Below, in pieces: positions 11,486 to 29,163 of a stretch of 64,000 bases of DNA; position 1 is the first letter of the stretch; each line of letters starts with the position of its first letter. Where the stretch lies: positions 1-64,000 of the IMG/VR virus record IMGVR_UViG_3300042294_004068. One strand, written 5' to 3'. Source of the DNA: a virus. The notes under the pieces are model-generated. The model did not search any database and was not told the DNA's origin. It saw only the letters and a list, made by a program, of their open reading frames with translations. The position numbers and the translations under genes are program-made.

Positions 11486-11665
11486 ATGTCATTAGCTCTC
11501 ACATGCGACGGACCCAGCTGTACTGCATCCGTTCCCAATACTTACGCCAATAAAGCAGCATGGGTTCTTATCTCCCATAAAAATGCAGACAAACATTTTT
11601 GTTCATGGAACTGCACTATTGCTTTTGTAACAGAAGTAGATGTCCTAGACGGTTTTAGCGATTAG
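11486..11665 (+). CDS. 59-aa Cys-rich protein
   Basis: A short protein with CDGPSC near residue 7 and CSWNC near residue 44, a four-Cys arrangement suggesting zinc binding. An AGGAAG SD precedes the ATG, and a canonical promoter lies 40 bases upstream. It sits just before the halogenase operon but has its own promoter. Confidence 0.65.
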   Translation: MSLALTCDGPSCTASVPNTYANKAAWVLISHKNADKHFCSWNCTIAFVTEVDVLDGFSD

Positions 11666-11670
11666 TAGGG

Positions 11671-11676
11671 TAGGCT
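11671..11676 (+). promoter_or_regulatory. -10 box of leaderless promoter for the halogenase operon
   Basis: TAGGCT ends exactly six bases before the ATG at 11683, with no SD. The same TAGGCT hexamer serves as the -10 of the nrdJ promoter. Confidence 0.45.
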
Positions 11677-11682
11677 TTCAAT

Positions 11683-12387
11683 ATGGGAAGAAAGTTAATC
11701 AAATTCGGTAAAAGCCACGACTACCCAGACACTCCTATTCCTATTAGGAATGTCGTACCTGACTGGTATAAAAAGTCTCCCCGTTTTATTGATGGTAAAG
11801 AGGCAAGTTACATCAATACAGAAAAAGGGTTACGCCCCAACATTGGCATGAAGATGTGCGTTCCTTTTTTTGATTCAATGATTTCTGGCTATACCGCCAC
11901 ACTTTGGCAAGATGTTCTTGTAACTAGACGTCCTGATGGTTTAAAAACCGAGTGGATAGTTGAACCAATTCCTATGATAGAAAGAAGCGTTCATGGAATG
12001 GAATTGCTGCCAATTCCAGCAGGTCATCATCATACTCAATATGCATGGGTAACACCTTTCTCAATTCAAACTCCACCAGGTTATAGCGTTTTGATTACTC
12101 ATCCATTTAATAGATTTGATTTGCCGTTTACTACTCTTACAGGTATTCATGATTCGGATGCGATTATGCCTCATGGTCATCTTCCGTTTTACATCAAAGA
12201 CAACTTTGAAGGAGTCATTCCTGCTGGAACTCCTATCTACCAAATTTTCCCATTTAAACGTGACAACTGGGACTCAGAGTTTGACCCTTCTTTAGCCGAT
12301 AAAGCAGACAAACGTATGTGGCAAGGTATGACCAAATTGTTTGGTCATTACAAACAAAACGTATGGAAGAAGAAGGAGTACAACTAA
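11683..12387 (+). CDS. Uncharacterised protein, halogenase-operon family member 1 (234 aa)
   Basis: Unrecognised function. Landmarks are VVPDWYKKSP near residue 23, CVPFFDSMISGY near residue 59, TPPGYSVLITHPFNR near residue 130, and IPAGTPIYQIFPFKRD near residue 190. It is clearly paralogous to the 24328-25056 protein; both end in KKEYN. It is distantly like the 21406-22176 protein. The beta-rich pattern would suit a cupin-like or binding fold. It is first in the operon and its stop overlaps the halogenase start (TAATG), so a partner or substrate-linked role is plausible. Confidence 0.75.
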   Translation: MGRKLIKFGKSHDYPDTPIPIRNVVPDWYKKSPRFIDGKEASYINTEKGLRPNIGMKMCVPFFDSMISGYTATLWQDVLVTRRPDGLKTEWIVEPIPMIERSVHGMELLPIPAGHHHTQYAWVTPFSIQTPPGYSVLITHPFNRFDLPFTTLTGIHDSDAIMPHGHLPFYIKDNFEGVIPAGTPIYQIFPFKRDNWDSEFDPSLADKADKRMWQGMTKLFGHYKQNVWKKKEYN

Positions 12388-13952
12388 TGGACCTTCGAGA
12401 TATAAAAGATGTCACTATTTTAGGTGGAGGGACCGCAGGATGGCTTGTTGCTCTCTATGCAAAAACGGTTCTTCCGACAAAAAAAGTAACTCTTATTGAG
12501 TCAGACAAGATTGGCATTCTTGGTGCAGGAGAAGGTTCAACTCCTCAGTTAATTTCATTTTTAGATGTACTTCAAATTCCTATTTCAAAACTTATTCAAG
12601 AAGCAGACGTAACTATAAAAAATGGAATCAAGTTTACAAATTGGAATAATGGTGGAAAGTCAGATTGGTTCTACCACCCATTTGTAGGGTACGGCAACTG
12701 TGCAGCTAGTAACGTATCTCTTGAGAGATATGTTTCAGGAACACCAACAATTTTTGCGGAAGCTGCAAAGTTAAAAGAGTCACAAGATGAGTGGTGTTTT
12801 ATAACTCGCTTATGTGAGCAAAATAAAGTTTCTTTTAAAACAATTCAAAATCAAATGTATTCAGCAGAAGATCCTGTTCTTCAATTTGAAAAAATGGGAT
12901 CTTTTTCTTTACATTTTGATGCTAGGAAGCTGGCAAAAACTTTATCCGAAATTGGTCAAGACAGAGGGATTATTCACGTTGAAGGGGTTGTAGAGGACTA
13001 CACAACTGATGATGAAGGCTATGTAACAACTTTAAAGTTGGAAAATGGAGAGTCTATAAAGACAGACTTTATTTTTGACTGCAGTGGCTTTAAGTCTTTT
13101 TTTAGCAAGAAGTTTAATACTAAGTGGATATCTGCAAAACAACATTTAACAGTTAATGCTGCTATGCCATTTTTTATTGATATGGATTCAGAAATTCCTC
13201 CGTACACAGAAGCTGTTGCAATGAAATACGGTTGGATGTGGATGATTCCTTTGCAGTCTCGCTACGGATGTGGCTATGTCTTCAACAGCGACATGATTGA
13301 TGACGAGCAAGCAAAAGAAGAAATTATTGAGTTCCTTGGCTATGACCCAGAGTGGCCTAGAGAGAAATCATTCTCATGGGAGCCAGGTTATTTAGAAGAG
13401 CCTTGGAAGAAGAATGTCTATACTGCAGGTCTTTCAGCAGGGTTCGTTGAGCCATTAGAAGCAACTTCTATTTGGACAACTATCATTGACTGGACTAGTG
13501 CAATTCTTGGTAACACCGAACTTATGTATATCAAAGACCAAGGTGTTATCGATGATTTCAATGCTTCGTGGCGTAAAAATCAGGAAGAAGTTATTGGATT
13601 TATTTACGCTCACTACATGAGTGGTAGGACTGATACAGAGTTCTGGAAGCACTACACATACGAGAATGCTCCAGCAAAAGCCAAGCAATACTTAGACATT
13701 AACAACAAGCGAGCTTTTATTGTTAATGACTTTATTGACCACGCATTCTTTGAAATTGATTCATGGTCTTATATTTTGCTTGGCATTAAAAATCAAAAGT
13801 TTATCGATAACCATAAACTCTTTGAGTTTTACAACTTTACTAGAACTTTTATGGAACAAAGATATATTAGTTTTAAAAAGTTAATTCAAACCGTTGCAGA
13901 TTTTGAAGCAGTCAGTCATAAAGAGTTCCTAGAGAGAATGAAAGAACAGTAA
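12387..13952 (+). CDS. Flavin-dependent (tryptophan-type) halogenase
   Basis: These enzymes use FADH2, O2 and halide to make HOCl/HOBr (or HOI) that halogenates an electron-rich substrate. The 521-residue protein has the FAD motif GGGTAGW (13-19) and GAGEGSTP (46-53). TIKNGIKF carries Lys78, aligned with catalytic Lys79 of PrnA/RebH. The diagnostic WMWMIP lies at 283-288, and EPLEATS carries Glu358, aligned with Glu346. All catalytic features appear intact. No flavin reductase is seen nearby, so host FADH2 is presumably used. The start at 12387 is coupled to the preceding stop. The substrate is unknown. Confidence 0.93.
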   Translation: MDLRDIKDVTILGGGTAGWLVALYAKTVLPTKKVTLIESDKIGILGAGEGSTPQLISFLDVLQIPISKLIQEADVTIKNGIKFTNWNNGGKSDWFYHPFVGYGNCAASNVSLERYVSGTPTIFAEAAKLKESQDEWCFITRLCEQNKVSFKTIQNQMYSAEDPVLQFEKMGSFSLHFDARKLAKTLSEIGQDRGIIHVEGVVEDYTTDDEGYVTTLKLENGESIKTDFIFDCSGFKSFFSKKFNTKWISAKQHLTVNAAMPFFIDMDSEIPPYTEAVAMKYGWMWMIPLQSRYGCGYVFNSDMIDDEQAKEEIIEFLGYDPEWPREKSFSWEPGYLEEPWKKNVYTAGLSAGFVEPLEATSIWTTIIDWTSAILGNTELMYIKDQGVIDDFNASWRKNQEEVIGFIYAHYMSGRTDTEFWKHYTYENAPAKAKQYLDINNKRAFIVNDFIDHAFFEIDSWSYILLGIKNQKFIDNHKLFEFYNFTRTFMEQRYISFKKLIQTVADFEAVSHKEFLERMKEQ

Positions 13953-14893
13953 TGGATTTTTCCAAGTTTCCATACGTTAGAGACTTAGGCGGACATATTA
14001 TCGATGTTCGTCGATTAATTGACCCTAACGAAAAAAAGTGGGGCGCGACTAATCTTTCTATTGGAAACTATAAAAATAAGTATGTTGGAGCTTTACGCTC
14101 TAGCAACTATGTCATTCTTGACAATGGGACTTACCATGTCACTGAAGGCAACCTAATAACCTCAAAGATTTATTGGGGAGAGTTCAACAAAGAGTTCAAA
14201 CTAGAAAAGCTAAGACTAATTGACACCTCAATTGCTGGAGATTTTAAACGAGGGCTCGAGGACCCAAAGGTTTTCTACCGCGATGGTGCATGGCACTTAA
14301 CCTGCGTAGTAATGGATAAAGGAGACTTTCCTTATGCACGAATGGCTATTGCTAGGCTAGACGCCAAATGTACTAAGTTTGTTGACTTTAAGATTTTTGC
14401 AGGTATGGATACCCAGCGTCCAGAAAAAAACTGGATGACTACATATGATAAAAATCCTTATTTTGATTTTATCTATGGACCAAACTCCACAGTTCAAAAC
14501 AACATGTTGACTTCGCTATTTTCAGATATAAAGCAGCTGTCTCAACTAAGAGGCAATACAAACTTGCTACTCCTTGAAGACGGGACCTACCTTGGGGTTA
14601 TGCACAGAACTTTTATTAAAAACGAGGCTAAGTGGGCCCCCGAAAGGTTTAGCACTCAAAACGCTGCAGTCCGAAACTACATCCACTACTTTGTAAGGTT
14701 TGACTCCAAAGGCAGTATTTTAGAGATTTCAAAAGGCTTCCAGTTCTTCAAATCTGGAATTGAATTTGCAGCAGGATTGGTAGCCCATAAAGATAACTTC
14801 CTAATAAGTTTTGGAAGAGATGATGTATCTAGTCATATTGCTGTTATGCCAAAAGAGCTAGTTTTAAAATCACTCATTCCAATCGAGTATTAG
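13952..14893 (+). CDS. GH130-like five-bladed beta-propeller protein
   Basis: A 313-residue protein with GLEDPKVFYRDGAWHL near residue 103, DGTYLGVMHRTF near residue 210 and IEFAAGLVAHKDNFLISFG near residue 270. These resemble the repeating LEDPR and EFAAGL signatures of GH130 mannoside phosphorylases and related sugar-acting propellers. Activity cannot be confirmed; it could be a glycoside phosphorylase, hydrolase or transferase. It is coupled to the halogenase by a TAATG overlap, so it may act on the same (perhaps glycosylated) substrate. Confidence 0.6.
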   Translation: MDFSKFPYVRDLGGHIIDVRRLIDPNEKKWGATNLSIGNYKNKYVGALRSSNYVILDNGTYHVTEGNLITSKIYWGEFNKEFKLEKLRLIDTSIAGDFKRGLEDPKVFYRDGAWHLTCVVMDKGDFPYARMAIARLDAKCTKFVDFKIFAGMDTQRPEKNWMTTYDKNPYFDFIYGPNSTVQNNMLTSLFSDIKQLSQLRGNTNLLLLEDGTYLGVMHRTFIKNEAKWAPERFSTQNAAVRNYIHYFVRFDSKGSILEISKGFQFFKSGIEFAAGLVAHKDNFLISFGRDDVSSHIAVMPKELVLKSLIPIEY

Positions 14894-15139: not shown

Positions 15140-15344
15140 AACAACACAAATAATAAAGCTTGAAGACAAACCTCTAGAGTATGTAACTCTTCGAGAGCAG
15201 TGTGACTCCTGCGGTCATCAAGCTTATTATCGAATCACTTTTGAAGCAGGTCATCTATTTTTCTGTAGGCATCACTACATGAAGCAAGAAGACAACTTCT
15301 TTGAAAAGGCTTTAGATATTGTTGATGAGTCTGAATTACTTTGA
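15132..15344 (+). CDS. DUF7455-like small zinc protein (70 aa)
   Basis: CDSCGHQAYYRI near residue 24 and FFCRHHYMKQE near residue 43 resemble the DUF7455 type of actinobacterial proteins (CDRCGAQAYVR and FCGHH). A short metal-binding protein of unknown role, overlapping the DUF3039 gene, as these two types often sit together in actinobacterial genomes. It ends tail to tail with speD. Confidence 0.75.
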   Translation: MSETTQIIKLEDKPLEYVTLREQCDSCGHQAYYRITFEAGHLFFCRHHYMKQEDNFFEKALDIVDESELL

Positions 15345-15722
15345 AGGCTTTGTAAAGTCTTCGATAGTAAATCCGTCAGTTCTTTCAAGAACTACATAGG
15401 TATAGTCAAACAAACTTAAGTTAGTTTCAAGATTATCTAGTACCTGCTTTACAGGAAGCTCTCCACAAGTGTACAAATCGAACTGGACTTTTGAAGGCTT
15501 GTCCTCGTCCCAAATGTGCATTGCAATGTGAGAAGTTTCAATCATAACTACTGCGGTTAACCCGCGATTACCTTCAGCAGTTACGTATGAAGCGTAAGGT
15601 CCTTGAATGACCTTCATGTCAATTGATTCAACTAGATTGCGCATCCAGTCAATAACAACTTGTTCATCAGTCGGGGGATTTAGTGTCCAACCGTTCACTA
15701 GCAAATGATTGTGTAAAGGCAT
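15336..15722 (-). CDS. speD: S-adenosylmethionine decarboxylase-like proenzyme (SpeD)
   Basis: The 128-residue protein matches the class 1B AdoMetDC fold. The self-cleavage segment ETSHIAMHIWDE carries Ser64 as the pyruvoyl precursor and His69, and DLYTCGE carries the proton-donor Cys86. This gives decarboxylated AdoMet for spermidine synthesis. Phage SpeD homologues can be neofunctionalised to other pyruvoyl decarboxylases, so the substrate should not be assumed. It lies alone on the minus strand with an SD-like AGAGAGG before its ATG. Confidence 0.85.
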   Translation of the reverse strand: MPLHNHLLVNGWTLNPPTDEQVVIDWMRNLVESIDMKVIQGPYASYVTAEGNRGLTAVVMIETSHIAMHIWDEDKPSKVQFDLYTCGELPVKQVLDNLETNLSLFDYTYVVLERTDGFTIEDFTKPSK

Positions 15723-18178: not shown

Positions 18179-19258
18179 ATGGAGAGTTGGCAAAAGCTAC
18201 TGAGGTCAGACACCCCTCTAACCTCTTATGTAGAGATGGACAGTCTTACGCGGGACTTGGTCCGTCCCTTCGATTACGAAACAGACGGTATTTCAACCTT
18301 TCACCCGTTTGTTCTTCCAGAACTTCCTAGTGAGTTTAACCTTGGCGTAATCGTTGGTGCCTCTGGGACAGGTAAGTCAACTCTCCTCCAATCTTTTGGA
18401 AATCCAGTAGTCACAAAATGGGACTCAACTAAATCAATTGCTTCACACTTTAAAGACCCAGTAGATGCAAATGAAAGACTTTCGGCTGCTGGATTAATGT
18501 CAGTACCTGAGTGGGTTAAGCCTTACAACGTTTTGTCGAATGGTCAGAAGTTTCGAGCTGACTTAGCAATATCTTTGCAAAGTGGTGCTGTCATTGACGA
18601 GTACACCTCAGTAGTAGATAGAAACGTAGCCAAGGCTGCTTCAACATCAATGTCTAAATACATCCGTCGCAACAACATAAAAGGAGTCGTACTGGCTACA
18701 GTCCACCGCGACATCCTTGAGTTCCTTGAGCCAGATTGGGTCATAGACACCGACCGCGGCGAGTGGACCTCAGGAAGGTATCTTCAACGACCTGAACTGG
18801 TTCTCGACATTTACCCTGCCCACAACAGCGTTTGGAGCTACTTCGCTTCGCACCACTATCTCTCGCAGCAACTCAATAAAGCCTCACACAGCTACGTGGC
18901 TATCTGGGAACAACAGTTAGTTGGTTACGTAGCATCCATGACTTACCCTTCAGGTACCGTACAAAATGCATGGCGTGAACATCGCTTAGTTGTACATCCT
19001 GATTATCAAGGACTTGGTTTTGGACCAAAGATTTCTGAAGCAGTTGCTCAACATTACTTAAGCAATAATAAAAGATATTTTTCTAAGACTTCTCATCCTC
19101 GTTTAGGAGAATATAGAGACACTTCTCCATTATGGAAACCAACTTCAAAAAATCACATGAAGCGTTCAGATGGACGTATACATCGTGAAAACATGCGGTG
19201 GGAATTAAATCCAAATCGATGGTCTTATTCTCACGAATACATTGGAAAAAATGACTAA
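18179..19258 (+). CDS. ABC-type ATPase fused to GNAT acetyltransferase
   Basis: The 359-residue protein joins two domains. Residues about 50-200 form an ABC-family ATPase. It has Walker A GASGTGKST (near 59), signature-like LSNGQ (near 119), Walker B VIDEYTS (near 137) and switch His in ATVHRD. Residues about 210-330 form a GNAT domain with LVVHPDYQGLGFGPKISE near 270, the acetyl-CoA site. It has no membrane segment, so it is not a transporter. ATP-driven modification of a protein or nucleic acid is one possibility. The next gene overlaps its stop. Confidence 0.85.
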   Translation: MESWQKLLRSDTPLTSYVEMDSLTRDLVRPFDYETDGISTFHPFVLPELPSEFNLGVIVGASGTGKSTLLQSFGNPVVTKWDSTKSIASHFKDPVDANERLSAAGLMSVPEWVKPYNVLSNGQKFRADLAISLQSGAVIDEYTSVVDRNVAKAASTSMSKYIRRNNIKGVVLATVHRDILEFLEPDWVIDTDRGEWTSGRYLQRPELVLDIYPAHNSVWSYFASHHYLSQQLNKASHSYVAIWEQQLVGYVASMTYPSGTVQNAWREHRLVVHPDYQGLGFGPKISEAVAQHYLSNNKRYFSKTSHPRLGEYRDTSPLWKPTSKNHMKRSDGRIHRENMRWELNPNRWSYSHEYIGKND

Positions 19259-20193: not shown

Positions 20194-20600
20194 AAGTTTT
20201 TTACGTCTCTTAAACTTCTCATAGTTTCTTCTATATGAGGCGGAAGATTAGTTGGAATAATTGTATTGTTTTCGTAATTTTCATCTTTTCTTGGAGTCAT
20301 AATGACTGTCTTACCTGCATCGTTTGAGTATGCCCGAGGATTTCTTTTGTTTCTCCAGATTTCTGGACCAACTTCTTCCCATTCAGCTGGGTGAGCAGTT
20401 AGAGGTTTTAAGTTGTCGTGCCTCATAAGCTTTTCTAAAATTTCTGGTGTGAAATAAATAGTGTCTTGGTTGTGGGAAAATTCTGTAAAGACGTCTAACA
20501 CCTTTAAGTAAAACTCTTTGTAAATTGGCTGTTCGTCAACAATATCAAGCTCAGTCTTGGCATGACGCATCCATTCTTCTTTGCTGTATTCAAATGCCAT
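20190..20600 (-). CDS. Hypothetical protein (136 aa)
   Basis: Unrecognised. Helical N-terminus (FEYSKEEWMRHAKTELDIV) and charged remainder. The ATG overlaps the 3' end of the pyruvyl transferase-like gene by 11 bases, so the two form one leftward transcription unit. Confidence 0.65.
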   Translation of the reverse strand: MAFEYSKEEWMRHAKTELDIVDEQPIYKEFYLKVLDVFTEFSHNQDTIYFTPEILEKLMRHDNLKPLTAHPAEWEEVGPEIWRNKRNPRAYSNDAGKTVIMTPRKDENYENNTIIPTNLPPHIEETMRSLRDVKNF

Positions 20601-21321
20601 CGTTATTTCTATTCCTTACGTTGTCGTTGTACCACTGTCTGCCTTCGACAATACTATTGACGAATACAGGCTCACCTAAGTCTACCGAAGCAAACCAGTC
20701 ATACCACTTAGGCAGACAGTCTATGTATGGCCCATCTAGTAAAGCAAAAGGCACCCCATAGGCATGTGCAGTCATAGCAGCATGCATAGAGCCAGCTAGT
20801 ACAAATCTTGCACCAGAAATCTTGTGAACTATACGTATAGTGTCGTCAAGAGTTTCAACTACTGCACTATAAATTTCATCTGCTCCATACTCATGAGCAG
20901 TAAATTCATTATATTCAGACGGGTCTTTTAGATGGCGCATTACAAATGCCAAACCATTAGGTTGAGCTTTTGTCAGTAGTTCAGGAAGAACATAGGCAGG
21001 GTCTCTTGTAAATTCAACATCTATCCCATGTCTTGCTAACTCAGCTTGAGTGTTTGGGCCACGCACAGTCCTAAACTCACAGAGCTCAACAAGACTGCTA
21101 TCTAACTCTTCGCCTCTCCACCCACATGTAATAAAAACTGGTTTTAATCCAAGTCTTAAAGTTTCTTCTATTATTTCATTACATATAACGCTTCCCAAAG
21201 GGAAGTACATGTGGTCTTGGTTTTCTGCCCACATTTTATAAATAGAGGGTGGCGTTATTAACTCAGCCAGCGCATCGCCATAGTTCCTGACAACGCCATC
21301 CATCTTCCACTCGTATATCAC
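20590..21321 (-). CDS. Polysaccharide pyruvyl transferase-like protein
   Basis: The 243-residue protein has NYGDALAELIT near its start, the RGPNTQAEL motif near residue 84 and AFVMRHLKD near residue 125. GARFVLAGSMHAAMTAHAYG lies near residue 172. This series is typical of polysaccharide pyruvyl transferases (CsaB or WcaK type), which add ketal pyruvate to cell-wall glycans. The length is slightly short. A GTG start is used (21321). A role in altering surface glycans or superinfection is plausible. Confidence 0.75.
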   Translation of the reverse strand: MIYEWKMDGVVRNYGDALAELITPPSIYKMWAENQDHMYFPLGSVICNEIIEETLRLGLKPVFITCGWRGEELDSSLVELCEFRTVRGPNTQAELARHGIDVEFTRDPAYVLPELLTKAQPNGLAFVMRHLKDPSEYNEFTAHEYGADEIYSAVVETLDDTIRIVHKISGARFVLAGSMHAAMTAHAYGVPFALLDGPYIDCLPKWYDWFASVDLGEPVFVNSIVEGRQWYNDNVRNRNNDGI

Positions 21322-24327: not shown

Positions 24328-25056
24328 TTAGTTATACTCTTTCTTAGACCAAAATCTGTCTTTGTATCCGTTATAAAAACTCATTTTTAGTTTTCTTAAA
24401 GAACCATTTACTCGTTTTACATCTTCTTTAGTAGTTTCAAAACTCATAGCATACGACTCTCTTTTAAAAGGAATCACTTGCACCATTGGGTACCCAGCAG
24501 GGAGTATTCCAGTCCATTCAGGGTCTATCAAAAAAGGAAAGTTGATTGGATGTGTAAAAGTGTCAGTGTCTACAACTCCTGGCAAACACTCAACAATTCT
24601 TTCATTTTTATCTCTATTTAAGGGGGATATAAACAGACAGGAGTAACCTGGTGGAGTGATAATTACCCAAGGCGAGTTAAATTTTGGAATTGCATTATTT
24701 GGATGCTCTTCAACTTGAGGATGTGTAGTCATTTGTAACGGGGGGTGGAAAGCAAGAACTTCATGGTCAGGCCACTGAAAAAGCTGTTGACCGTTTTGTT
24801 TAGTTACTTTTACATCTGTTGGTAAAGGGATAATATACCCAGCAGTCATGGCATCTAACATTGGTATGCATTTTTTGCCAGTTGCTGTCCCCTGATTAAT
24901 TCCTACTTCATTCCAGTAAACCTGACCCTGCTTGCCATCGATGTATGAAGGCAGTTTTTTATACCACTCTGGTAAAACCTTTTTTGCGGGGTAGGGTCTT
25001 ACTTCCTCAGGGATATCCCCTAAAGCATCTAAGAACTTAATTTTGATTTCTCGCAT
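24328..25056 (-). CDS. Uncharacterised protein, halogenase-operon family member 2 (242 aa)
   Basis: A clear paralogue of the 11683-12387 protein. Shared features are LPEWYKKLPSYIDGK versus VPDWYKKSPRFIDGK, KCIPMLDAMTAGY versus MCVPFFDSMISGY, and ITPPGYSCLFISPLNR. ILPAGYPMVQVIPFKRE and the C-terminal KKEYN also match. The function is unknown. It stands alone on the minus strand after the tRNAs. A weak TAAGTT -10 lies seven bases before its ATG. Confidence 0.75.
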   Translation of the reverse strand: MREIKIKFLDALGDIPEEVRPYPAKKVLPEWYKKLPSYIDGKQGQVYWNEVGINQGTATGKKCIPMLDAMTAGYIIPLPTDVKVTKQNGQQLFQWPDHEVLAFHPPLQMTTHPQVEEHPNNAIPKFNSPWVIITPPGYSCLFISPLNRDKNERIVECLPGVVDTDTFTHPINFPFLIDPEWTGILPAGYPMVQVIPFKRESYAMSFETTKEDVKRVNGSLRKLKMSFYNGYKDRFWSKKEYN

Positions 25057-26686: not shown

Positions 26687-27868
26687 ATGTTGCGTAACCT
26701 CAGCGAGCTATTCCTAGCAGCTACTCTCCTAATTTATGTTGTTCCATACATTATTTGGAAAGTCTTTAAAACTGACAACTTTGTCCCACTACCAATTATT
26801 CAGATTATCTCTGGCCTTCTCCTAGGCCCAGCAGTTCTTGGCTCTCTACACCCTGAGTTCTTCAACTACTTATTTACTAAAGACAATATCAATGTCTTGA
26901 GTGGAGTGGCGTGGCTTGGCATTATCTTTTTTGTTTGGTCAGCAGGAGTTCACCTAGATATAAAAGCAGCCTTTACAAATAAGAAAGACACCTTCACAAC
27001 AGCATCACTAGCCTTAACTGGCCCTCTAGTTTTTGGTTCTATCTTTGCTTTTATTATCTATGACCGAGGTCCTTGGGCAGGAGAACAGGCAGCAACTTGG
27101 CAGTTTGTTCTTGCTGTGGGTATGGGCATGGCTGTAACAGCGCTACCAATTTTGGTTTTGTTGATGGAAAAGCTTGGCATTTTTAATGGACCTATAGGAA
27201 GAAGAGTCCTAACTTATGCAAGCTTAGATGATATTTTTATTTGGGTTGTTTTAGGCATAATCATTATGGATTGGGATAGGTCTTTACGACAGCTAATCTT
27301 CCTTCCAATTTTTGCTTTGGCAGCCTACGGCTTAAACGCATTAGTAAAGACTCTTAAAAACAAACAAGACATCTGGTACATAACAATTGTTTGGACTATT
27401 GCAGTTGCTCTTGCTGCAGACTGGTCAGGATTGCACTACATCGTAGGTGGCTTTATGGCTGGTGCAGTAATGAAGAAGGAGTGGTTTGAAGAAAAGCAAC
27501 TCGAGGTCTTCAAAAACACAGTCTTAATTTTGATGATGCCTACATACTTCTTACTAACTGGTTTAAGGACCAGTTGGGAAGTAAGCGGTATTGCAGTTCT
27601 TCTCTTGGCTCTTGGTTTGTTTGCTGTTCAGTTTGCTGGAAAGACTACTGGTGTTTTTGTGGCAAGCAAGATTCTAGGTTGGCCTAAGGGCGAGTGGAAA
27701 CTTATGGGCACTTTGCTTCAGACAAAGGCTCTTATAGAAATCATATTTGCTACGATTCTTTTGGATAAAGGCATCATCACAGCGGACATGTTTACAGCTC
27801 TCTTGCTTATGGCTGTACTCAGTACGATGGTGACGATACCGATAGCCAGAAAGCTTTTAAAAGCTTAA
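26687..27868 (+). CDS. CPA2-family cation/proton antiporter
   Basis: A 393-residue protein with about 11-12 transmembrane helices. ISGLLLGPAVLG (near residue 40) and LTYASLDDIFIWVVLGI (near residue 175) match the discontinuous helix and conserved acidic motif of the CPA2 Na+/H+ and K+/H+ exchangers (NapA and KefB/C type). It lacks a C-terminal regulatory domain, typical of short CPA2 members. It would move Na+ or K+ out in exchange for protons, altering pH or ion balance. An AAAGGGA SD lies before the ATG. Rare in phages. Confidence 0.88.
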   Translation: MLRNLSELFLAATLLIYVVPYIIWKVFKTDNFVPLPIIQIISGLLLGPAVLGSLHPEFFNYLFTKDNINVLSGVAWLGIIFFVWSAGVHLDIKAAFTNKKDTFTTASLALTGPLVFGSIFAFIIYDRGPWAGEQAATWQFVLAVGMGMAVTALPILVLLMEKLGIFNGPIGRRVLTYASLDDIFIWVVLGIIIMDWDRSLRQLIFLPIFALAAYGLNALVKTLKNKQDIWYITIVWTIAVALAADWSGLHYIVGGFMAGAVMKKEWFEEKQLEVFKNTVLILMMPTYFLLTGLRTSWEVSGIAVLLLALGLFAVQFAGKTTGVFVASKILGWPKGEWKLMGTLLQTKALIEIIFATILLDKGIITADMFTALLLMAVLSTMVTIPIARKLLKA

Positions 27869-28240: not shown

Positions 28241-28378
28241 ATGATTGAATTCCTTAAAAAGCTTTTTTGTAAGCACCCAATCACCACCCAAAGCTCCTGC
28301 CCTTTCACCATGAAGAATTACGACATCTGCATCGCATGCGGAAAGGTCTCAGAACGGAACGGGAGCCCGGAAAATTGA
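28241..28378 (+). CDS. 45-aa zinc-knuckle microprotein
   Basis: FLKKLFCKHP near the start and CIACGKV near residue 30 give two metal-binding pairs (C-x-H and CxxC), as in small phage proteins with a KLFCKH start. The C-terminus runs through the third copy of the 20-bp element. Its stop overlaps the TTG start of the methyltransferase. Confidence 0.6.
   Translation: MIEFLKKLFCKHPITTQSSCPFTMKNYDICIACGKVSERNGSPEN
28355..28374 (+). repeat. Copy 3 of the 20-bp upstream element
   Basis: An exact copy of CGGAACGGGAGCCCGGAAAA, directly abutting the TTG start of the methyltransferase. It is identical to copy 4. Confidence 0.85.
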
Positions 28379-29163
28379 TTTCCGAGCCATATAAAGACAT
28401 TCCTAAAGAGATAGTGAATGTTCTTGAAGACCTTATTACCCCTGAAGACTCATACCATCAGGGGCATAAGCGTCGTATGGCTCGCACCCTTGATGTACTT
28501 CTCAAAGAGAAACCAAAAGGCAAGCTACTAGAGCTCGGAACTTCAAAAGTTATTCCGTTGTCACTTCAGCAGCTAGCTCCAGATTTAGAAGTTCATGTCA
28601 CCGATTTTGACAAAGACTTGCCTTTAAGTGGTACTTCAACTATCTCAATCAAGGATAAAACCCTCAAAGCAACGACATACAGGGTTGACTTAGAGACAGA
28701 GGTTATCCCTGTTGAAGATGCCACTTTTGATGTAGTTATCTGCTGCGAAGTCATAGAACACATGGAGTTAGACCCCATGTTTATGTTGGCTGAGATAAAT
28801 CGAGTTTTGAAGCCAAATGGAAAGCTAATCCTCACCACACCAAACATCACCAGCTCACGGGCTTTATACAAGATGCTTCGAGGAACAGATCCATACTTCT
28901 ACATGCAATACCGACACAAGCCAGCCTTGTATCGCCACAACTACGAATACAGCGAATACTCACTACGCCAAGTAGTCAAGGCAGCAGGGTTCTCAGGTCA
29001 GGTATGGACCGAGGACTCTTTCGAAGACGGGGTTATGGAAGATATCACCCGCCTACGACAGCTTGGCTACCCACTTACCTCAATCGGGGACAACATCTTT
29101 GCAACCCTCACCAAAACTCGTGGAGTTGTAAATCGCTACCCCTCAGTAATCTACGCAGACTAA
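28375..29163 (+). CDS. SAM-dependent class I methyltransferase
   Basis: Core motifs are KLLELGTSKVIPL (motif I, near residue 46), VDLETEVIPVEDATFDVVIC and CEVIEHM (motif post-III, near residue 118), then LKPNGKLILTTPN. These place it in the UbiE/Methyltransf_11-type superfamily. The substrate is unknown; the C-terminal Tyr/His-rich part resembles sugar or small-molecule methylases. TTG 28375 is chosen because the GGGAG of the 20-bp repeat sits at SD distance and its start overlaps the preceding stop. Confidence 0.75.
   Translation: MISEPYKDIPKEIVNVLEDLITPEDSYHQGHKRRMARTLDVLLKEKPKGKLLELGTSKVIPLSLQQLAPDLEVHVTDFDKDLPLSGTSTISIKDKTLKATTYRVDLETEVIPVEDATFDVVICCEVIEHMELDPMFMLAEINRVLKPNGKLILTTPNITSSRALYKMLRGTDPYFYMQYRHKPALYRHNYEYSEYSLRQVVKAAGFSGQVWTEDSFEDGVMEDITRLRQLGYPLTSIGDNIFATLTKTRGVVNRYPSVIYAD

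Follow-up and report, generated by a model that had tools for sequence, protein, structure and literature searches.

Flavin-dependent halogenases (FDHs) of phages recur beside a protein with a predicted dUTPase-like fold and, in most relatives, beside a small membrane protein; in the phage studied here, the first of these pairings is represented by genes A and B. On balance, we favour the reading that A and B make up a recurrent phage halogenation cassette, in which the FDH has a DUF6065-like, dUTPase-fold partner. A three-gene pathway for the halogenation of a glycan, as an earlier note on this DNA had suggested, is not supported. The same pairing is found beside VirX1, the only viral halogenase that is well characterised, so it is A, and not the third gene C, that is the clue worth testing. 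To our knowledge, no natural substrate of a phage halogenase is known. A partner kept beside these enzymes, down to the VirX1 locus, is a concrete handle on their role: should it turn out to alter which substrate is chosen or where the enzyme is located, what viral halogenation does could be tested.

The locus and its source phage

The window analysed here is a stretch of 64,000 nt, positions 1 to 64,000 of the 110,921-base virus record IMGVR_UViG_3300042294_004068, which comes from a freshwater-type bacteriophage. An actinobacterial host is suggested by DUF3039 and by WhiB-like genes, the latter found both in the record and in contigs related to it. The three ORFs and both of the TAATG couplings reported in the earlier note agree with the sequence (Table 1). 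At the B–C junction, the gene for the membrane protein sits instead in the related contigs L004, L086, L087, L089 and L094.

Table 1. Features of the A-B-C locus and related genes in the window
Feature	Coordinates	Strand	Basis and remarks
59-aa Cys-containing ORF	11486..11665	+	just 5′ of gene A; kept in L004, L086, L087 and L089; outside the cassette
TAGGCT, −10-like hexamer	11671..11676	+	leaderless spacing before gene A; consensus match only
Gene A, 234 aa, DUF6065-like, dUTPase-like fold	11683..12387	+	PHROG 7084, E 7.5e-34; predicted fold
A–B TAATG stop/start overlap	12385..12389	+	stop 12385-12387, ATG at 12387
Gene B, 521 aa, flavin-dependent halogenase	12387..13952	+	PF04820, E 7.2e-96
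B–C TAATG stop/start overlap	13950..13954	+	stop 13950-13952, ATG at 13952
Gene C, 313 aa, GH130-type five-bladed propeller	13952..14893	+	predicted fold; Foldseek 7fip, E 3.2e-9
Second A-family gene, no adjoining FDH	24328..25056	-	A profile, E 2.1e-55
SAM methyltransferase	28336..29163	+	PF13489, E 2e-13; homologues directly 5′ of C in other phages

A leaderless promoter had been proposed for the operon. TAGGCT is kept at −12 to −7 of the ATG of gene A in the window, L004, L086, L087 and L089, and lies two bases closer in L094, and no Shine-Dalgarno sequence was found before gene A in the window or its relatives. On the other hand, some TANNNT occurs at the same position in 6 of 18 sampled genes lacking a Shine-Dalgarno sequence. 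Given the conservation of the hexamer, a leaderless start of gene A is plausible.

The closest relatives share 81-83% identity in A, 73-80% in B and 62-86% in C. Where computable, dN/dS against these relatives is about 0.04-0.12 for all three genes, and 0.22 for A versus L094, values that are rough given that synonymous changes are near saturation. Since these ratios are low, A, B and C are all kept by purifying selection and are not chance ORFs.

The record holds a second, different FDH at 72342-73850 (L100:12342-13850), outside the window and 30% identical to B; it is preceded by collagen-like genes, a methyltransferase and a glycosyltransferase-like gene. The relatives G001 and G002 likewise have two FDHs, and L094 has two in tandem. 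Other genes of the window include an S-adenosylmethionine decarboxylase (15336-15722, minus strand; 97% identical in L086), a protein whose N-terminal half is P-loop-like (GASGTGKST) and which also has a GNAT acetyltransferase domain (18179-19258; kept in L094), a polysaccharide pyruvyl transferase-like protein (20590-21321, minus strand) and a sodium/hydrogen exchanger family protein (26687-27868), here in a phage genome.

Neighbours of viral halogenases

We fetched 56 distinct FDH loci with the FDH (B) alone as query. In this set, where shared ancestry within phage lineages inflates neighbour counts, the A family is present in eight copies, of which seven lie no more than 400 bp from the FDH; about one would be expected at such a distance if placement were random, and none of 20000 random placements was as extreme. 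All scans together gave 21 distinct FDH loci with an A gene, which lies within 1.2 kb of the FDH in all but one. The A gene may be upstream, downstream, convergent or divergent relative to the FDH, with gene orders shuffled, and the FDHs so partnered are spread over several deep branches of their tree and over phages of two or more host groups, the VirX1 operon included. The unknown protein that the earlier note saw before the halogenase is, then, a real partner, adjoining FDHs of several clades.

One instance is that of cyanophage Syn10, in which the order is FDH, VirX1 and an A-family gene, with overlaps of 11 to 17 bases between successive genes. VirX1, which iodinates substrates and prefers iodide (PMC8407142), is the second FDH ORF of this operon; the Syn10 protein is identical to PDB 6qgm and is called a “hypothetical protein” in the GenBank record (L341:4508-6872). 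The A protein of the window and that of Syn10 match weakly by BLASTP (E 0.001, a single pair), and the A profile finds Syn10 A at 1.4e-14. The FDH-A order is also seen in five further cyanophage loci, those of S-CREM1, S-RIM44, Sf-FR1, P-TIM40 and Sf-FP1. The S-CREM1 A gene is annotated as “triphosphate nucleotidohydrolase”, and the halogenase of this phage is treated as a lone tryptophan halogenase where the description of the phage discusses it (PMC9964418).

The commonest neighbour of the viral FDHs is a highly conserved membrane protein of about 100 aa (~95-123 aa) with three hydrophobic segments (for example, L086:7041-7412 and L004:6571-6942). Its gene is present in 48 of the 56 distinct FDH loci, always within 100 bp of the FDH, and missing from the other eight. 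It belongs to no PHROG family and has no match in 50,697 phage records; two members give weak SdpI matches. It was not found in the record of the window phage, and for that reason it was invisible to the earlier note. When the membrane protein itself was the query, 60 of 80 loci held an FDH; in other viral contigs, it stands alone between the primase and SSB-like genes of a replication operon. We thus reject it as an obligate FDH partner, given these solitary copies and its absence from the window phage.

Could B be a stand-alone auxiliary metabolic halogenase, acting on tryptophan, indole or another small host aromatic, with A and C unrelated genes stacked next to it by gene shuffling? Lists of auxiliary genes have included phage halogenases from 2010 or earlier (PMC3037559), and prnA-like phage genes have been reported as lone ones (PMC3037559, PMC10452541, PMC10611076). 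A is missing from the surroundings of the FDH in most phage loci, and both A and the membrane protein also occur alone. However, each of the two keeps within a few hundred bases of the FDH in several FDH clades, a closeness well in excess of what random placement gives, and in Syn10 the genes for A and VirX1 overlap. We therefore regard a solitary B as possible but rather unlikely. No paper on the pairing of FDHs with A or with the membrane protein was found among the open-licence papers searched.

Decoration of tail fibres was also considered, given that the second FDH of the record, that of DSL-LC01 and several cyanophage FDHs are near tail or collagen-like genes. Collagen-like genes lie within 5 kb in 6 of 56 FDH loci, 6 of 65 A loci and 14 of 62 C loci; because they are not enriched near FDHs, there is no support for such decoration as the general case.

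The halogenase

The earlier note described B as a complete FDH, and its features bear this out. The match to PF04820 (Trp_halogenase) scores 322 bits against a curated cut-off of 21, PHROG 2928 (“tryptophan halogenase”) is also matched, and solved FDHs in the PDB are matched down to 1e-57. The FAD motif GxGxxG is present as GGGTAG and WxWxIP as WMWMIP. In the alignment, K78 and E358 fall on the catalytic Lys and Glu of Thal, and these residues are found in 67 and 66, respectively, of the 67 other aligned FDH rows. (In the alignment and in the FDH tree, the row named VirX1_Syn10 is the neighbouring paralogue of VirX1.) Thus, judged by its sequence, B is an intact-looking flavin-dependent halogenase under purifying selection. 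An in-frame loss is seen in a relative: the FDH at L086:5705-7054 is without 72 codons present in that of the close relative L087.

A recent host origin of B was rejected: in 395 genomes from the class to which a Microbacteriaceae MAG belongs, there were 11 matches at E<=1e-20, the best full-length one about 31% identical.

One motif departs from the expected. FxxPxxSxG, a signature used for genome mining of FDHs (PMC12645471), reads FVEPLEATS in B, with Ser replaced by Ala and Gly by Ser. As this puts EATS rather than ESTG beside the halide site, the activity of B cannot be assumed. It is conceivable that the change alters halide binding next to the catalytic Glu, so that B has lost the ability to halogenate, or else is a related flavin monooxygenase: EATS is found in 65 of 67 aligned viral rows, whereas Thal, RebH and VirX1 have ESTG. 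Against this, the protein is under purifying selection, with K78, E358, the FAD motif and WxWxIP strictly conserved, and 9luq, a solved FDH-family protein filed as a tryptophan halogenase, has ESTS, with Ser likewise at the last position. The signature is hence not a strict requirement for an FDH, and we consider the loss of halogenation by B improbable.

The propeller

The model of C (pLDDT 91.3) matches, by Foldseek, 7fip, dozens of GH130 entries and Leishmania MPT proteins, in agreement with the GH130-like propeller that had been predicted. C itself has no match in Pfam, PF04041 (GH130) included, and 15 of 52 relatives of C match PF04041, the best at 9.1e-5. The Glu-Asp of a GLEDPK stretch is invariant in all the C relatives.

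It had been suggested that C acts in one pathway with the halogenase, A, B and C together halogenating a glycan-linked or surface molecule, with C acting on the sugar. The frames are coupled, the order A-FDH-(membrane protein)-C is shared with six related contigs (53-86% protein identity; one identical over the cassette), the predicted fold of C is that of a mannoside phosphorylase, and glycosyltransferase-like and pyruvyltransferase genes lie elsewhere in the record. However, the co-conservation of the three genes, which holds within this clade, fails for C outside it, as only the window phage and these six contigs have the order. Even there, C is more divergent in L089, whose A and B are similar, and the usual downstream neighbour of an FDH is the membrane protein, not C. 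When C was the query, 77 of 78 loci had no FDH in the fetched flanks. C is found directly 3′ of a methyltransferase, a homologue of that in the window, in L095, L263, L264, L265, L267, L271, L272, L275, L277, L278 and actinomycetia phage DSL-LC01, and in none of these 11 loci does an FDH adjoin C. C is, then, not a consistent halogenase partner; its commoner neighbour is the methyltransferase, and it probably derives from a methyltransferase–C module. Nothing points to a glycan as the substrate, and FDHs are known to act on aromatic, electron-rich rings (PMC8407142). We judge the glycan pathway quite improbable.

The partner with a predicted dUTPase fold

Since A had no significant match, and C just a weak one to GH130, when the PDB was searched by sequence, predicted folds were needed for both. 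The predicted structure of A (pLDDT 95.3, from 67 sequences) finds dUTPases and dCTP deaminases in the PDB by Foldseek, with a best E of 5.5e-4 and, versus 3ecy, a TM score of 0.72 on the 119-residue target. In BFVD, the named hits are mostly dUTP diphosphatases, ranked below unnamed phage relatives. A itself has no match in Pfam, with none to DUF6065 (PF19541) at E<=1; 13 of 67 relatives of A do match this family, the best at 3.5e-7. By eye, A has G-x-x-D-x-D and G-T-P-x-x-Q, reminiscent of dUTPase motifs 3 and 4, while the PRSS-type motif 2 and the Gly-rich motif 5 are absent from the alignment. Because these two motifs are missing and PF00692 (dUTPase) is unmatched in A, as it is anywhere in the record, we term A dUTPase-fold and not a dUTPase.

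Most members of the A family live apart from halogenases. With A as query, 77 of 80 loci had no FDH, and across viral contigs A-family genes are multicopy, often in tandem pairs (L106, L112, L119 and many more). Since they are so often in tandem and so often far from any FDH, the family must have uses beyond halogenation. Homologues without an FDH are found in haloarchaeal viruses, and the bacterial DUF6065-like loci show no FDH neighbour and no clear function.

The fold invites the thought that the target of the cassette is a nucleic acid or a pyrimidine nucleotide, and that A serves to bind the nucleotide once halogenated or to clear it; the two motifs reminiscent of dUTPases, the proximity of A homologues to ribonucleotide reductase in HF2 and S-RIM4, and the lack of a canonical dUTPase in the record, its relatives or Syn10 are consistent with it, but the missing motifs 2 and 5, the unmatched PF00692 and the mostly FDH-free surroundings of A, along with the fact that we know of no FDH acting on nucleotides, make it very improbable.

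A working model for the cassette

For the cassette of A and B that we favour, the following scheme can be drawn from FDH chemistry. No Flavin_Reduct gene was found in the phage record, so FADH2 would come from the host, where a flavin reductase would supply it to B. From O2 and halide, B would make HOX, which Lys78 would hold, as in the FDH family, with Glu358 helping to place or activate an aromatic substrate. To judge from adjacency, A would most probably work together with B, whether by binding or handling its substrate or by assembling with it. In most relatives, the membrane protein could be a further component of the cassette, one that the window phage does without. C would be a mannoside-phosphorylase-like propeller of another module that came to lie 3′ in the clade of the window. 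Aromatic, electron-rich rings are the usual substrates of FDHs. By analogy, a small aromatic metabolite or an aromatic protein residue would be likelier as the substrate of B than a sugar, which is unlikely for this chemistry.

It is tempting to go further and propose that viral FDHs operate with one or two further components, a dUTPase-fold subunit and at times the membrane protein, and that their natural substrate is a nucleotide, a nucleic acid or a protein-bound aromatic and not free indole. Taken as a whole, this is a speculative and unlikely extension. Were it true, the broad in vitro range of VirX1 would reflect a missing partner.

Comparison with known systems

C shares its propeller fold and the invariant Glu-Asp with GH130 mannoside phosphorylases and with the Leishmania MPT mannosyltransferases, at 12-15% identity. 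A shares its predicted fold with the dUTPase/dCTP deaminase superfamily, from which it differs in the unmatched PF00692, the absence of motifs 2 and 5 and the presence of extra N- and C-terminal parts; DUF6065 is matched by relatives of A and not by the A of the window.

Phage DSL-LC01 (OQ999401) resembles the window in having an FDH of the B clade and a C homologue (42% identical), but in this phage the two are far apart, and neither A nor the membrane protein was found. Its FDH (L001:8001-9572) reads EPLDFSS where B has EPLEATS, and its WxWxIP is broken; although reported as a halogenase, it may be inactive.

With PrnA, RebH and Thal, B has in common PF04820, the FAD motif, the Lys and Glu, and WxWxIP, at about 30% identity over the conserved part. 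It differs from them in having EATS, not ESTG, and in that no biosynthetic gene cluster surrounds it.

A close parallel to the arrangement in the window is the VirX1 operon. VirX1 and B are distant (phmmer E 1.6e-39), VirX1 with ESTG and B with EATS; the gene order is FDH-FDH-A in the former and A-FDH-C in the latter; and VirX1 prefers iodide (PMC8407142). Both, however, are viral FDHs with the Lys, the Glu and WxWxIP, and in the VirX1 operon as in the window, an A-family gene accompanies the halogenase, there overlapping its end.
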